DNA from: Rheinheimera nanhaiensis E407-8 | GTDB lineage: Bacteria > Pseudomonadota > Gammaproteobacteria > Enterobacterales > Alteromonadaceae | Direction: 5' to 3' | DNA: 64,000 nucleotides | Assembly (NCBI RefSeq): GCF_000296695.1 | Contig: NZ_BAFK01000001.1 | Coordinates: 248,001 to 312,000, forward strand | Shown here: positions 1,168 through 8,433 of the stretch, piece by piece | Position numbering within the stretch: the stretch's first letter is position 1 | Layout of the letters: every line of letters begins with the position of its first letter | Position numbers and translations under genes: made by a program | The notes under the pieces: generated by a model | What the model saw: only the letters and a program-made list of their open reading frames with translations | The model's database searches: none | Told to the model about the DNA's origin: nothing

Positions 1168-1389
1168 ATGAAAGCTTTAACTTTAATTTTAATCGCACTT
1201 GTATTATTCGTAGTCGAAGCCTCAACTGGGGTGTTGATAAAACAAACTGAAAGTAAGATTAAGCTAGAGAATACTTACGCTTGCATATGGTACACCTATT
1301 GCAACGATCCTGAATCATACAGCCCTATCCTACAACCCAAGAGCGACAAAACTGAAACTCAGGACACTAAAGACGAAAAACTAGCCTGA
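1168..1389 (+). CDS. Small secreted or membrane-anchored peptide, unknown function
   Basis: This encodes 73 residues. It starts with an uncleaved or weakly cleaved signal segment (residues 2-17, KALTLILIALVLFVVE), followed by a polar region with two cysteines in ACIWYTYC, and ends in a highly charged Lys/Asp/Glu/Thr tail. The start is supported by AAAGGAG at 1152-1158, nine bases before the ATG. It follows the propeller gene by 79 bp and ends just before the first 94-bp direct repeat. I recognise no family. The position suggests a partner of the upstream regulator, which is inference only. Confidence 0.6.
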   Translation: MKALTLILIALVLFVVEASTGVLIKQTESKIKLENTYACIWYTYCNDPESYSPILQPKSDKTETQDTKDEKLA

Positions 1390-1477
1390 TACATTGTCTT
1401 ACAAATAGAGACGCTAAACCTTTCTAAGGCTTAAGGTATAATCCGCCCAGATAACATGTTATCGGGCGGACCTTAAT
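1384..1477 (+). repeat. 94-bp direct repeat, copy A (promoter-like)
   Basis: By hand alignment this stretch matches 6272-6365 over 94 bases with seven mismatches and no gaps. It overlaps the last codons of the small peptide gene. It contains TATAAT at 1437-1442 and then an inverted repeat: CCGCCC and GGGCGG flank a perfect 14-base palindrome, GATAACATGTTATC. In copy B the repeat ends on the first bases of a gene (ATG at 6364). Here the equivalent bases are ATT and no gene starts, so copy A looks like an orphaned promoter or leader. Confidence 0.85.
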
Positions 1478-1630: not shown

Positions 1631-2728
1631 ATGCAAAACCAGCAATATAACGGCGTAATTCTTGAAGATAAATGGGGTAAAACCTATCTTTGCAGCAGTT
1701 GCTTATTGGCTTACGCTGATTTAGGAGAAGGCTATATTTCTGACGTCAACGACAAGGAATATGGCCGCTATTTTTTGCACGACTTAGAACCGCATTGGAA
1801 TTTACGCCAAATTTGGGTCGAAATGTATCAACACGTCAAACCCTGGGCGTTAGATTTATCTAAGTTTACTGATTTTCAGTTGCGTGATGCTTTATTGCAA
1901 ATATTTTCTGCTGGCGAAATGCGCGTCTGGCAACTCAGCGAGGGCTGGGGCAAACAACCGGAAGGCAACGGCATAGGCGAAGGTCGTTTAGCGCCACAAA
2001 CCAGCAGCAACGTAGGCCCTGCAACTGTCAGCAAAAAAGCACTTAAACCCGGTGGTGGCGTAACGCCGGCAAATAGCAGTAACGCCACAACGGCAGTGCA
2101 TAGCAGTATAACCACCAACACGGTAGCACCGACTGCGACAGATGATATTGCAAACAACCCGGCAGCCCGTAAAGCGTTGTATGTCAAGCATGGCATTGAA
2201 GTTGGCCCTTACAAAGAGCTGCAAAAAATCACCAAACCGGGTTACCAACGTGAGCACTTTATTCCGCATAGCTGTTTTATGGTGCGCTCTGTCGCCAGTG
2301 GTGAGAGCCGTGCTAATGTGCCTATTGGTGCGGCCTTTGGTTCTTATAATGAAGGCGATGCTATTACCTATTTTGTGTTTGATGACCAAAGCAAAGGTAC
2401 AGAGCACCGCTATCTTACCGATATTGAAAAAAACTATGCCAAATCACTGAATGATGCTGGCGAGTATGCGACAGTGAATCAATGGTTAGACCATATGGAG
2501 CACGAAACCGCAACATCCTTATGTATGGACACCATAGAGCGCTCACCTGGCGTATATGAAGCGCGTGTACCAGACGACGAAGCAAAACTGGTGGCTAAGG
2601 CCATACGGATTGACACAGAAAGCTACTTGGACAGTGCTGGCGTGAATAAAAATGCACCGCTATCTAATCTGGTGGGTGGTGGAGATGTGCCAGGTGGCAC
2701 AGAAATCGGTAGCGGTGATGACTTCTAA
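1631..2728 (+). CDS. Candidate toxin with HNH/ENDO VII-like motif
   Basis: This encodes 365 residues. Residues 1-110 are compact and rich in aromatic residues, with a CSSC pair near residue 22. Residues 120-180 are a low-complexity Ser/Thr/Ala/Asn/Gly linker. Residues 185-320 form a second domain with GPYKELQK at 192-199 and GYQREHFIPHSCF at 204-216. The combination of a GPY motif, a (R/E/N)H motif and a short following hydrophobic run resembles the HNH/ENDO VII-type nuclease domains seen at the C-termini of polymorphic and type VI secreted toxins. This is motif resemblance only, and the N-terminal domain is unrecognised. No secretion genes are present in the window. The protein has no signal peptide. 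Confidence 0.5.
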   Translation: MQNQQYNGVILEDKWGKTYLCSSCLLAYADLGEGYISDVNDKEYGRYFLHDLEPHWNLRQIWVEMYQHVKPWALDLSKFTDFQLRDALLQIFSAGEMRVWQLSEGWGKQPEGNGIGEGRLAPQTSSNVGPATVSKKALKPGGGVTPANSSNATTAVHSSITTNTVAPTATDDIANNPAARKALYVKHGIEVGPYKELQKITKPGYQREHFIPHSCFMVRSVASGESRANVPIGAAFGSYNEGDAITYFVFDDQSKGTEHRYLTDIEKNYAKSLNDAGEYATVNQWLDHMEHETATSLCMDTIERSPGVYEARVPDDEAKLVAKAIRIDTESYLDSAGVNKNAPLSNLVGGGDVPGGTEIGSGDDF

Positions 2729-2742
2729 TTAAGGTATTGAAA

Positions 2743-3684
2743 ATGAACGTTAGAAATCAATATGACATTGTACATGCGATAGATGTTGCCCATTCTCAAT
2801 ATGGTTATCATGCCATTTTAACTTTTTACAACGAGTCAAACCCTTTAGCGGCGGTTGGGATGGTATCAGTAAATAATGAGCCCGTAGAGGGACTGATTAA
2901 GACATTCTTAGGCGCCAATTTCCAGCTAAACGCAATGTGGGTATCCGACAGCGGTAATTTATGGGTAGTTGATGATCAAGGCGATGTATTTACCACTGCT
3001 AAGGTCAGCTTTAGCCAGCCACCTTATCGCTTATTAAAGTTTAACGCGGGTAGTTTTGATATTGACTGGCAGGTAACTGAAGCCTTTAAAGGTCAACTAA
3101 ACGGTATTTGGGGCACAACTGACAGTGATGTGTGGGTAACTTCCTTTAAAGGGCCGGCCTTACACTGGAATGGCAAAGACTGGACCGAGTACGCCCTACC
3201 GCAAGCACCTAACGCCATTGATGGCTCTGCCAGCGATGATATTTACATCGTTGGTTATCATGGCAATATTCACCATTTTGACGGTAGCCGTTGGCGCAAA
3301 GTAACTCTGCCTGCCAACATTCCCCAGCAAGATGCCTTTACTGATGTAAAAGTGGTATCAAAGCACTTAGTTTACATTACAGGGCGCAGCGGTTGCCTGT
3401 TGGTTGGTAATGCCGCTGACGGTTTTAAAGATATTGGTTCACCTAAGTTTAGTTGGTATGGCGTAGGCACTTTGGCTGAACGGGTATTTTTAGCCGGTGG
3501 TGAGGCAGGTATATTTGAGTTAATAGACAGCCAGTTTATTTGCCTGAAAGACAAAGGCCAACCGGTAGGCGTTTTTGAAACGCCAAACGCCATTAACTTT
3601 ATTCCTGCTGAGCAGCAACCTAACCCATGGTTTGTCAGGTATGAACCTAGTGCTGCCCGCGAATGGACAAAGGTAAATACGTGA
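2743..3684 (+). CDS. Beta-propeller protein with DVW-type blades, cassette partner
   Basis: Starting at the ATG at 2743 (AAGG at 2731-2734) gives 313 residues. An in-frame TTG at 2737 would add two. At least five degenerate blades are visible, for example NLWVVDDQGDVFTT, GIWGTTDSDVWVTS, AIDGSASDDIYIVG and VFLAGGEAGIFEL, with ALHWNGKDW and IHHFDGSRW between them. This pattern is known from bacterial galactose-oxidase-like propellers. There is no signal peptide, so it is probably cytosolic. It follows the candidate toxin by 14 bp and overlaps the next gene by 4 bp, so it could be an immunity or chaperone partner, which is inference. Confidence 0.65.
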   Translation: MNVRNQYDIVHAIDVAHSQYGYHAILTFYNESNPLAAVGMVSVNNEPVEGLIKTFLGANFQLNAMWVSDSGNLWVVDDQGDVFTTAKVSFSQPPYRLLKFNAGSFDIDWQVTEAFKGQLNGIWGTTDSDVWVTSFKGPALHWNGKDWTEYALPQAPNAIDGSASDDIYIVGYHGNIHHFDGSRWRKVTLPANIPQQDAFTDVKVVSKHLVYITGRSGCLLVGNAADGFKDIGSPKFSWYGVGTLAERVFLAGGEAGIFELIDSQFICLKDKGQPVGVFETPNAINFIPAEQQPNPWFVRYEPSAAREWTKVNT

Positions 3685-4004
3685 TAAAACTCACTTACCT
3701 TGTTATTACAGCCACACAGGCCAAAGCTGAACTTAGGCTATGGCAACAACAGGGTAAAAACCTGCTGGCGCTGGTTAAATTACAACACAGCAAACCCGGC
3801 TTTAGCTTGTATATTCCCGGTTATCGCTGTAATAACTGGTATCGGTTGGATAGACAATACTACCCCAGCCAGCAAGCCGCATTAGCGGCTTATGGTGAAT
3901 TATTGGACTCACTGACTGATGAGTATACTCAGAAGGGGGTGAGTAGCGTTCCTTTTATCGGACATTCAAAACTGAATCATCAAATTACAGAAGAGGCAAA
4001 ATGA
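3681..4004 (+). CDS. Small cytosolic protein of unknown function in the cassette
   Basis: I place the start at the GTG at 3681, which forms a GTGA overlap with the stop of the propeller gene and has AAAGG eight bases upstream. An ATG at 3663 in the same frame would overlap more deeply. The product has 107 residues, is mixed alpha/beta in character and rich in Tyr, Leu and Gln, with no signal peptide or membrane helix. Its stop overlaps the start of the lipoprotein gene (ATGA at 4001-4004). I do not recognise a family. The tight coupling on both sides argues that it is a real gene. Confidence 0.6.
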   Translation: MIKLTYLVITATQAKAELRLWQQQGKNLLALVKLQHSKPGFSLYIPGYRCNNWYRLDRQYYPSQQAALAAYGELLDSLTDEYTQKGVSSVPFIGHSKLNHQITEEAK

Positions 4005-4603
4005 TCAGATTTTTACTTTCAGTACTTTTAGCGATTGGATTATCAGCTTGTAGTCAGAACGCTGATCCAGACAAAGCCGATATATTAGCAGCGCTAAATG
4101 ACTTAGCGACCAAGAAAGCTTGTGTCAGTTCCACTTTGTTCCAGGCGTTTCCAATTTCAAAGACCAACCAAACTGAAGCAAATCAAGATATTATTCAGCC
4201 GTTTGTCGAGCTCGGCTTTATTGCAAACAAACCAGATGAATATACGTTATCGGAAAAAGGGCAATTGGTTTACGACAAAAATCAAGCTGGGTTTTGTTAC
4301 ACAAACCAATTTAAAATCAGCGATATTTCAGTAGTTAAGAAAGAGTCTGATAATAATTTACCTCCTGGATTATCAGGAGTTTGGTATGTCAGATTCAACA
4401 TTGAACCGGAAAGTACTGAAGAATGGGTTCTGAGTTCAGCAATGTTGCAAGTTGTAAGTCATTTGACGCCGGACCAAATTACCAAGACACACTCATTTAC
4501 TGTGCGGTTAGCAAAAAAACATGGCGAAGAAGAGCTAATTATTGCGGACCCACGCTTTAGCTTTAACCCAGGTATGCGTTTAAATACCAAATTTACGTTT
4601 TAA
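4001..4603 (+). CDS. Predicted lipoprotein, cassette member
   Basis: This encodes 200 residues with a lipoprotein signal (LLAIGLSAC, lipidated Cys17) and then a soluble domain with a possible winged-helix-like segment (residues 30-95) and a beta-rich C-terminal half. It is translationally coupled to the preceding gene by an ATGA overlap. Lipoproteins encoded beside secreted toxins often act as periplasmic immunity proteins. That role is plausible here but not shown by the sequence, and the family is unrecognised. Confidence 0.65.
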   Translation: MIRFLLSVLLAIGLSACSQNADPDKADILAALNDLATKKACVSSTLFQAFPISKTNQTEANQDIIQPFVELGFIANKPDEYTLSEKGQLVYDKNQAGFCYTNQFKISDISVVKKESDNNLPPGLSGVWYVRFNIEPESTEEWVLSSAMLQVVSHLTPDQITKTHSFTVRLAKKHGEEELIIADPRFSFNPGMRLNTKFTF

Positions 4604-5237: not shown

Positions 5238-6038
5238 TTAGAAGGACTTGACGACTCGTTTATCATCCTTCCCATAGTAGACTTCACCATCAAGGATTTC
5301 GGCATAAAAGATACCTTCTCCTTCATCAAGCCTTACAAGCTTGAAGTAAAACATAGCTGGCAGTTCTCGATTGATTGTACCGCGTGAATTTTTCTTTTTC
5401 TGAAGGAATACCTTGGCTGCTTCTGGATCCATCTTCAAATTGCCAATGACCTCTGGATTTGTGAAATATAGTCTGAACTCACGAGGAAAATTATTGCTCG
5501 GCATGCGTAGACTATCTTGTTTAAAGCTATAGCTGGTTGTCGTTGTAAGGGAATCCAGTGGGAATTCGCTCTTTTCAAAGTCATAGGTGCCAAAATCCCA
5601 CTCGGTGAAAAGCTGATGAACCCGTGTTTCATCAAATTCTTCCGTGGTTTGTTTAATTTTACTGACCGCGGCCTGTCTTTTGCTAGCCAGCTCGAATTCG
5701 TCATTCCGATATTTTGTATAAATATCAGGATAATAGATTCGCATTAGATCAGTTGCATTTTGATCATATGAAAAATACTTGGACATCTTTCTGTAGGCAG
5801 TGAAAAAGTAGGCCCAGTTATACCCCTCATCGTAGACATTTTGATGTCGGGACTGTTGCACTCGCGGGGAAACTTCTGCCATAACATCATCAGAAACTTG
5901 GTCACTTTGAGATTCGGCCTTTCCCCAAATCATTTCTGATACTGGGCCTCTCTTTACGCCCTCAGTCGGCTGAGGAAGCGTTGATTTACATGCTGTCATT
6001 GATAGCGCCACAAACAGCAATAGGACTGTTTTATTCAT
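5238..6038 (-). CDS. Predicted lipoprotein, DUF4852-like in style
   Basis: This encodes 266 residues with a lipoprotein signal (LSMTAC, Cys17). The mature part is soluble and mixed alpha/beta, with YDEGYNWAYFFTAYRKM (about 69-85) and a C-terminal beta-rich segment ending EILDGEVYYGKDDKRV. The layout reminds me of the DUF4852 lipoproteins, but I cannot confirm that. The start is supported by GAGGAG just upstream of the ATG on the minus strand. It is transcribed toward the cassette and lies inside the repeat-flanked region. Confidence 0.6.
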   Translation of the reverse strand: MNKTVLLLFVALSMTACKSTLPQPTEGVKRGPVSEMIWGKAESQSDQVSDDVMAEVSPRVQQSRHQNVYDEGYNWAYFFTAYRKMSKYFSYDQNATDLMRIYYPDIYTKYRNDEFELASKRQAAVSKIKQTTEEFDETRVHQLFTEWDFGTYDFEKSEFPLDSLTTTTSYSFKQDSLRMPSNNFPREFRLYFTNPEVIGNLKMDPEAAKVFLQKKKNSRGTINRELPAMFYFKLVRLDEGEGIFYAEILDGEVYYGKDDKRVVKSF

Positions 6039-6271: not shown

Positions 6272-6365
6272 GCCTGATATATTGTCTTACAAATAGAAAC
6301 GCTAAACATTTCCAAGGCTTAAGGTATAATCCGCCCAGATAACAAGCTGTCGGGCGGACCTTAAT
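6272..6365 (+). repeat. 94-bp direct repeat, copy B (promoter and leader of the regulator)
   Basis: This is the second copy of the 94-bp repeat at 1384-1477. It contains TATAAT at 6325-6330, and the CCGCCC/GGGCGG arms are kept, but the inner palindrome is degraded. It ends within the ATG of the winged-helix gene (6364). GGGCGGA, about ten bases before the ATG, is the only Shine-Dalgarno-like stretch. Confidence 0.85.
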
Positions 6366-8433
6366 GTCACATCTGGACCCTGTGGTACAAATTGGTGACT
6401 GGTATTATCAGGTGATCTACGGTCAGCTGTGGCCTGCTGCTGTACCCGTAAAGCCCGAACACATGGTGCGCTTGGAGCCACGACTACACAGCCTGCTGAA
6501 TTTCTTTTTGCAACACCCCAACACCCTGTTAGCCAAAGATACCTTGATTGAAAAAGTCTGGCCGGCTGAAGAAGGTACCGATGCCGCAGTGATGCGTGCT
6601 GTCGGCGCACTGAGAAAAGTGCTGGGTGATGATGTGCGAGCGCCGGTCTACATAGCCACGATATCGAAAAAAGGTTACTGCTGGCTGGCCGATATTAACC
6701 CCGTTGCACCCGGCACCCTGTTGCCTCATGTTGAACTGCCTGAAACAGCGCAGCCGGCCCTTACCAAGCCTGATGTATTACCACCGCGCTGGCCCTGGCG
6801 CTTTATCAGTCTGACGGCTGCAGCGATACTGCTTGGCTGTGCCAGCGTCGCTTATGTGTTGGCGAGTCTCACTGCAGCGCCGCTGCTGAAGTTGCCTGAT
6901 ACGATTACACCAATTAGCGCGTTAAGCGGGCAGGAATACTGGCCTGTGCTAAATGACGCGCAAAGCCATGTGGTGTATCAACAGCGGCCGCTGGATGCTA
7001 ACAGCCTGAACTGGAACCTGCAAAACCTGACTGATTTACGGGTAAGCCCATTACCGCAGCAGTTTAATGCCCTGTCACAACCACACTGGCTGGATGCCGA
7101 GCAGGTGCTGTTTCGTGGCGAAAAACCTGGCGAGTCATGTCAATTTTACCGGCAGCGGCTGTTACCGCAGCCGGCAGCGCCAGTCGCTTTGTGGTCTTGT
7201 ACTGCTGTATTGCCGCAAGCGTTGGTGCGCTGGCAGCAGCAGTGGCTGTGGTTAGATAATACTGCTGACGATACTACGCAGGCGCTGTGGATTGCTGAAG
7301 CCCAGCGACCACCACAGCTGCTGCGAAGCCTAACCAGCCTGTACTGGCCAGTGCAGCATATGCTGATACAGGATGACATGCTGTACTTGCTGGTGCAGCA
7401 AACGCAAAACAGCAGCAGCTTGTTTAGGATGCAACTCCCTGATGGTGAGGCTGAAGTTGTCCGGCAGTTTCCTTATCTGATAGAGCAGTTCTCCTGGTGG
7501 GATCAGCATAAGTTGTTATTGTCACCCGCACAGCACGAGCTGCAACTGTATGATATTAAACGTGACACTAGTCAAAGCCTTGGACCGTTAACGCGTGAGT
7601 TGACTCAGGCACAGCGCTACGACAACCGTATCCTTGCTACGCAATATCTAGATTACACTACGGATATTTACCGGCTCGAGCCGTTTGACAACCCGGTAAC
7701 GGTTACTCCCTGGCAAGTGTCAAACCGCAGCGAGCGCTTGGTGGCGCATGGTGACGCTGGTACTGCCTTTGTGTCAGACAGGGCGGGTATAAGCCAAATT
7801 TGGCTGGAGCAGGGCCGTGACAGCATACAGCTTAGCCGGTTAAACGAGCAGCAGCAGTTGCAGCAACTGCTGTGGCATCAGGGCGAGCTACTGGCGCTGC
7901 TGAACAGCCAGTTATACCGCTTAGCACCTGACAGCAGCGAGCTGAGCCTGTACCCGCTGCAAGCTAAGGCTGCCGGACGTTATGCCAGTTGTACCAACCA
8001 ACTATATTGGACTGAGCGGCGCGAAGAGCAGTGGTGGTTAATGACAGCGCACCAGCAGCAGGCTAAGCCAGTACGTGCCGGCGTGGTTGATGTGCGCTGC
8101 GGGCCCGATGAGAGGCTGCTGCTGCAGTTAGCCGACGACCGCAGCCTGCATCTGTTGGAGCCAGGCGGTCAGTTAACTGCACTGCCGGTGCAACTGGACT
8201 GGCGTTACGTTAAGCCAGAGCAGTGGTTTAGCGACCAGAGCGGCATTTACTGGTTAACCGCACAAGGCACTGAAGTACAGGCGTATCTATGGCAGGAACA
8301 GCAGGTGTCCATATTTAACTTGCCGCTAGAAAAACGCGCCATCGCAATTTATAGCAACGGTGCAGGTTTGGGTTATCTGGTGCGGCCAAGGCCGCACGAT
8401 ACCGATATTGTCTGGCTGCACAACCGCCGTTAA
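6364..8433 (+). CDS. Membrane-anchored winged-helix regulator with periplasmic propeller (CadC/ToxR-like)
   Basis: This encodes 689 residues. Residues about 8-110 form an OmpR/ToxR-type winged helix ([21 protein letters not shown]). Residues 147-170 are one membrane helix. Residues about 175-689 are a TolB/WD40-like propeller predicted to be periplasmic. CadC-like proteins of this layout read a periplasmic signal and bind DNA from the membrane, and the ligand here is unknown. Its promoter lies in repeat copy B. It is probably a paralog of the partial gene at the window start. The 3' end overlaps the convergent hemL by 4 bp. Confidence 0.85.

Follow-up and report, generated by a model that had tools for sequence, protein, structure and literature searches.

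Polymorphic toxin systems such as Rhs-CT, CDI and T6SS cargo effectors possess exchangeable N-terminal domains and toxin ends, a cognate immunity gene directly downstream and arrays of displaced pieces, as described in the accessible part of the source (PMC3482391). Some T6SS effectors are recognized by the marker domains FIX, MIX, RIX and WHIX, which are fused to varied toxins in T6SS-bearing genomes; FIX is an N-terminal domain of ~80 aa, and 70.14% of the genes directly upstream encode VgrG, TssL or DUF4123, according to the available text (PMC6688995). Among the closest known toxins are the DNase effector TseN of Acidovorax citrulli (PDB 9J9W) and Tde5, which the available text presents as a T6SS-associated β-β-α-metal DNase with three required histidines (PMC13392607). 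Propeller-like folds occur among immunity proteins: the accessible portions of the reports describe Tsi1 as three sheets resembling a fragmented propeller (PMC3391265) and XAC2610 (X-Tfi) as similar to Tsi1 in topology (PMC10933484), both of which inhibit peptidoglycan hydrolases.

The locus analyzed here lies in a window of 64,000 nucleotides (the whole stretch of DNA under analysis) from the aquatic bacterium Rheinheimera nanhaiensis E407-8, and its first two genes almost certainly form a polymorphic-toxin pair of interbacterial effector and immunity protein (Table 1). The system is of a known kind with unnamed parts, the unusual one being a complete β-propeller that very probably serves as immunity protein; in contrast to the described polymorphic toxin systems, none of its N-terminal domain (N-domain), toxin end and immunity protein scored above the cut-off of a Pfam family in the scans performed. 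It thus adds three unnamed parts, namely the toxin end, an N-domain that is combined with at least eight toxin types in one genus, and the full propeller in the immunity role, and the N-domain provides a simple handle by which more effectors, and immunity proteins with them, can be listed in such bacteria. A preliminary description of the DNA had read four consecutive genes as a possible toxin, propeller and lipoprotein cassette. The four reading frames were all confirmed, as were the linker and the GPY...QREHFIPHS stretch of the first gene. The four-base overlaps are likewise genuine: one is ATGA at 4001-4004, the other GTGA at 3681-3684, provided that gene 3 begins at GTG 3681. An alternative start of gene 3 at ATG 3663 gives a 22-base overlap with the propeller gene.

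Table 1. Features of the effector locus and its borders (positions in the window).
Feature	Position	Strand	Description	Basis or occurrence
Effector gene	1631..2728	+	365 aa; N-terminal domain, linker and C-terminal toxin domain	Open reading frame; 111 homologues including itself
N-terminal domain	1631..2005	+	Residues ~1-125; common to effectors with other toxin ends	95/111 homologues; tracks TssC in the genus
Low-complexity Ser/Thr/Ala/Pro linker	2006..2134	+	Residues ~126-168	Sequence and start of the CTD alignments
C-terminal domain (CTD)	2135..2725	+	Putative HNH-like nuclease toxin outside any named family; residues 169-365	24/111 homologues
Motif QREHFIPHS	2246..2272	+		Q, R, E, H, P and S invariant
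Motif GTEHR	2396..2410	+	Start of helix CTD 90-107	G, T and H invariant (12-row alignment)
Propeller gene	2743..3684	+	313 aa; assigned as cognate immunity protein	Complete seven-bladed β-propeller
Small protein (gene 3)	3681..4004	+	Accessory or passenger of 107 aa (GTG start)	Not tied to the CTD toxin
Lipoprotein (gene 4)	4001..4603	+	200 aa; passenger	LSACS lipobox (by eye)
94-bp direct repeat, left copy	1384..1477	+	Bounds the insertion	93% identical to the right copy
94-bp direct repeat, right copy	6272..6365	+	Leader of the next gene	Relatives have one match each

A search of ~5.8 billion proteins revealed 111 homologues of the effector at E ≤ 0.001, the query included, which were split at the linker. 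The N-domain is found in 95 and the CTD in 24 of these proteins, with both in eight, the N-domain only in 87 and the CTD only in 16. The N-domain is therefore joined to varied toxin ends (87 of its 95 proteins lack this CTD), and the toxin end sits on other carriers (16 of its 24 proteins lack this N-domain). Pfam names the ends of 20 N-domain proteins, as PF13930 (9), PF26363 (6), PF08808 (3) and PF15538 (2); the remaining ones have ends without a Pfam name in the same homologue table. Conversely, the CTD is carried by an Rhs protein of Marinomonas lutimaris at 77% identity and by differing N-terminal ends in Hahella, Psychromonas and Oceanobacter, and a profile search added further closer pieces as well as remote relatives at 33-47%. 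This exchange of N-domain and CTD among homologues bears out the proposal that the first gene encodes an effector or toxin, of a modular type. An alignment of 15 mixed proteins was too uneven and was not used. Among 369 genomes of the class, the CTD is matched in its own genome only; plasmids and phages gave no match to it, and none of 53 pattern stretches in viral contigs is a relative. PADLOC gave no match, PHROGs only weak matches of unknown function (best E 0.0049), and the viral fold library nothing useful. PDB sequence searches with the effector, the propeller and the CTD reached a best E of 0.26. In the accessible parts of the literature searched, nothing was found on this effector family or on T6SS effectors of Rheinheimera.

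The CTD, modeled by AlphaFold with a pLDDT of 91.1, is on balance a putative HNH-like nuclease, judged from its motifs and predicted secondary structure, and the product of this weapon gene probably cuts DNA or RNA. QREHxxPxS resembles [DE]HxxPxS, the initial half of an HNH motif. The motif histidine, H41 of the CTD (residue 209 of the protein), does not vary among the 24 CTD proteins or in a 12-row alignment of which seven rows are remote (32-41% identity), as the preliminary description had demanded of an HNH/ENDO VII-type enzyme. A second invariant histidine, H91 (residue 259), is found where the helix behind the second strand begins. The predicted order is a strand 37-41 ending in H41, a strand 77-82, and a helix 90-107 with H91 as its second residue, which corresponds to the HNH/EndoVII succession of strand-His, strand, and helix with a metal-binding residue. 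A predicted strand-strand-helix with conserved histidine is likewise shared with Tde5, by description, and with other HNH DNase toxins. Thus, the invariant H41 and H91 and the core order support the HNH/ENDO VII assignment, whereas the second histidine of the motif, H45, is replaced by Asn in five of the 12 rows.

The CTD might alternatively be a toxin that is not an HNH nuclease, either another hydrolase or a protein with some other cytoplasmic target, and the propeller would still be its immunity protein; we regard this as the less probable reading, yet a substantial one. It fits with the scattered weak Pfam and NCBIfam matches of 18 members, which include no named nuclease family, and with the invariant residues D83, Q85, W117, E122 and N178 of the 12-row alignment, all lying beyond the HNH-like core. 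The CTD fold matches listed include no solved HNH protein, a point that might be set on the same side, though taken alone it counts neither for nor against. Such a toxin accounts less well for the resemblance of QREHxxPxS to the HNH half-motif, for the predicted strand-His, strand, helix-His order, and for PF13930, a DNA/RNA non-specific endonuclease per the sources, being the commonest Pfam end behind the N-domain. The domain scans used a family alignment of 18 of the 24 CTD proteins; PhiCb5_coat (4/18 members, best E 0.029) and NCBIfam matches that mostly concerned single members (best E 0.00054, to a dihydroorotate dehydrogenase model) were set aside as weak.

The N-domain is likely to deliver the effector via the T6SS, as its distribution suggests. 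It occurs in 22 of 31 genomes of the genus and in none of 29 others of the order. A Pfam scan with 12 members (the window protein and 11 of the 29 N-domains listed) gave no family over the cut-off, and a profile search of 369 genomes of the class found it clearly in its own genome alone, in addition to one broken, marginal match (E 0.0055). Across the 31 genomes, the N-domain and TssC (PF05943) are both found in 21 and both missing in nine; the N-domain occurs alone in one genome (G015) and TssC alone in none (Fisher p 5e-7, kinship ignored). The genus tree was built from one gene (hemL) and covers 30 of the 31 genomes, leaving out G010, which has both TssC and the N-domain. On this tree, absence of TssC requires four changes, and the lineages without TssC are also those without the N-domain, except for G015. 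Of the four independent pairs available, a mean of 3.4 are concordant, 0.6 show no difference and none is discordant (p ~0.25), so that the link recurs in separate lineages and is not significant after correction for kinship. The own genome has matches to TssC, Hcp and VgrG on a contig (C46) apart from that of the window. Two adjacent VipB/TssC-family proteins are encoded in this T6SS cluster (G000:C46:21745-24299), and all 21 genomes of the genus with any match to this family have at least two. Another genome, G019, has two Hcp-family matches (G019:C11:236476-237818) and no match to TssC or VgrG.

Like FIX, MIX, RIX and WHIX, this N-terminal domain, of ~125 aa, occurs in T6SS-bearing genomes and is fused to varied toxins. 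It differs from the four, compared by the available descriptions, in its occurrence almost only in part of one genus among the genomes searched, and from FIX, on the same basis, in not being near VgrG. On the contigs of the N-domain genes, no VgrG match lies within 70 kb (the nearest is at 74 kb, in G017), and the genes therefore look like stand-alone cargo islands. This distance, together with the two N-domain genes of G015, which has no TssC match, could also mean that the effector leaves the cell in some other way or that the cassette is a relic without delivery. We consider this unlikely: the N-domain is present in all 21 genomes of the genus with TssC and missing in nine of the ten without, the two absences coincide by lineage apart from G015, and no signal peptide is seen by eye.

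The propeller is very probably the immunity protein, an assignment that comes from gene neighbourhood, with binding to the CTD presumed. To survey the downstream genes, 20 stretches were taken from 36 N-domain matches, with the one upstream of the window replaced by the window itself. The 21 effector genes in these stretches fall into eight CTD clusters (6, 5, 3, 2, 2, 1, 1 and 1 members), and the genes directly downstream also form eight clusters that pair one to one with them in all 21 cases. This pairing is trivial for the three single clusters; the other five comprise 18 genes, some of whose loci share flanks and are not independent. Each toxin type is therefore followed directly by a specific gene, as in polymorphic toxin systems, and these genes are presumably immunity genes. 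The propeller lies directly 3' of this CTD in the three loci read: the window, the Marinomonas Rhs locus L032 (propeller at 1350-2276, CTD gene ending at 1341), and L050 of G020, whose effector frame is shortened at the N-terminal end. For 10 of the 23 other CTD proteins a propeller is found on the same contig, as judged from equal lengths of the longest contig, which does not imply adjacency; three of the ten have adjacent or near-adjacent locus tags (HCH_06372/06371, HCH_03330/03328 and ACR30L_09735/09740). No propeller was paired with the other 13, some of which may be hidden by 90% clusters and short contigs.

Propellers commonly serve as binding platforms, and 313 aa is large for an immunity protein, so an adaptor, a chaperone or a second toxic subunit might be considered in its place. 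We find this quite improbable: the propeller tracks the CTD rather than the N-domain, standing behind the Marinomonas Rhs protein with the same CTD, and it never directly follows the 19 N-domain effectors that carry a different CTD, which have downstream genes of their own types.

The AlphaFold model of the propeller (pLDDT 94.7) has seven radial four-stranded blades that close into a ring. A propeller had been proposed from the sequence, where the support is weak (the Pfam family Tectonin scores 16.7 bits at E 0.005, below its cut-off of 30 bits); the fold itself is supported by the model. At the family level (the window protein and 28 of 43 propellers), Tectonin (10/29 members, best E 0.00089) and DUF2510 (14/29, best E 6.9e-5) were both weak and set aside. 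Plasmids hold four partial matches at 24-37% identity. Compared to Tsi1 and XAC2610, the propeller is complete with seven blades, has no signal peptide by eye, and has a presumed cytoplasmic toxin as target. Somewhat more tentatively, we propose that a complete cytoplasmic seven-bladed propeller confers immunity to a new toxin family by plugging its active site, and that it travels with the toxin between an Rhs carrier and an unnamed N-terminal T6SS delivery domain, so far found almost only in Rheinheimera. In the available parts of the literature searched, no complete seven-bladed propeller was found as an immunity protein; the accessible text of the 2012 polymorphic-toxin survey indicates that such an immunity fold had not yet been found then, and propeller immunity, if true, would be a kind of fold absent from it.

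Taken together, we consider the following explanation likely as a whole. The N-domain would direct the effector into the T6SS encoded elsewhere in the genome, and the CTD would enter the cytoplasm of a neighbour, where its most likely mode of action is that of a metal-dependent HNH-like nuclease via H209 and H259, as the motif and the predicted secondary structure suggest. The cytoplasmic propeller, made from the next gene, would bind and block the CTD and thereby spare the producer and its kin. The CTD and propeller would be swapped as a unit between carriers, and would have come here within a 4.9-kb insertion.

The earlier four-gene cassette is too wide: in the loci that were read, the recurring unit consists of genes 1 and 2 alone. 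Despite the tight four-base overlaps, and a sister effector type (CTD cluster 1, five loci) that is followed by a lipoprotein-like protein of 273-274 aa (lipobox by eye), we reject as highly improbable that the four genes function as one cassette in which the lipoprotein provides periplasmic immunity or anchoring, since gene 3 is scattered and the lipoprotein has relatives in only two of 59 other genomes (G009 and G046), beside unrelated genes, and was not found in L032 or L050; the immunity role passes to the propeller. Gene 3 has 25 mostly weak matches in 16 of 60 genomes, the own one included, and its relatives are scattered over the genus. It is present in two of the three CTD loci read, in one of them (G020) as a broken copy 3' of the propeller, while in G021 a 75%-identical copy (L038, 12005-12307) follows a different toxin-immunity pair with a four-base overlap with its stop. 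Since gene 3 follows unrelated toxin-immunity pairs, it and the N-domain may serve as homologous arms for exchange of the CTD-immunity module; the role of gene 3 could accordingly be that of a recombination arm or of an accessory protein.

The locus is bounded by the 94-bp direct repeat, of which the genome holds two copies and no other was found (E ≤ 1). By eye, the repeat unit contains the inverted halves TTAAGGT...ACCTTAA and CCGCCC...GGGCGG. In a search of 32 genomes, 14 relatives (L074-L087) have a full-length match to the right-hand regulator-like gene, and in all 14 the matched ends of the flanking regulator-like genes are 387-487 bases apart, compared to 5279 here; the 4.9-kb segment was therefore most likely gained in this genome. 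The two flanking genes (6364-8433 and the gene ending at 1088) encode paralogues of 689 and 716 aa, which are also neighbours in the 14 relatives; the first has a winged-helix N-terminal end (PF00486), and the second is 29% identical to the first and weakly resembles a TolB-like propeller. The insertion also contains, on the minus strand at 5238-6038, a gene for a lipoprotein-like DUF4852 protein (E 1.4e-19). In G020, a longer effector and several toxin pieces that are truncated lie at ~2261-9538 of L050 (G020:C1:1010000-1029990), and behind each of them is an immunity-like gene; together they look like an array of displaced toxin-immunity modules, such as polymorphic toxin systems have.
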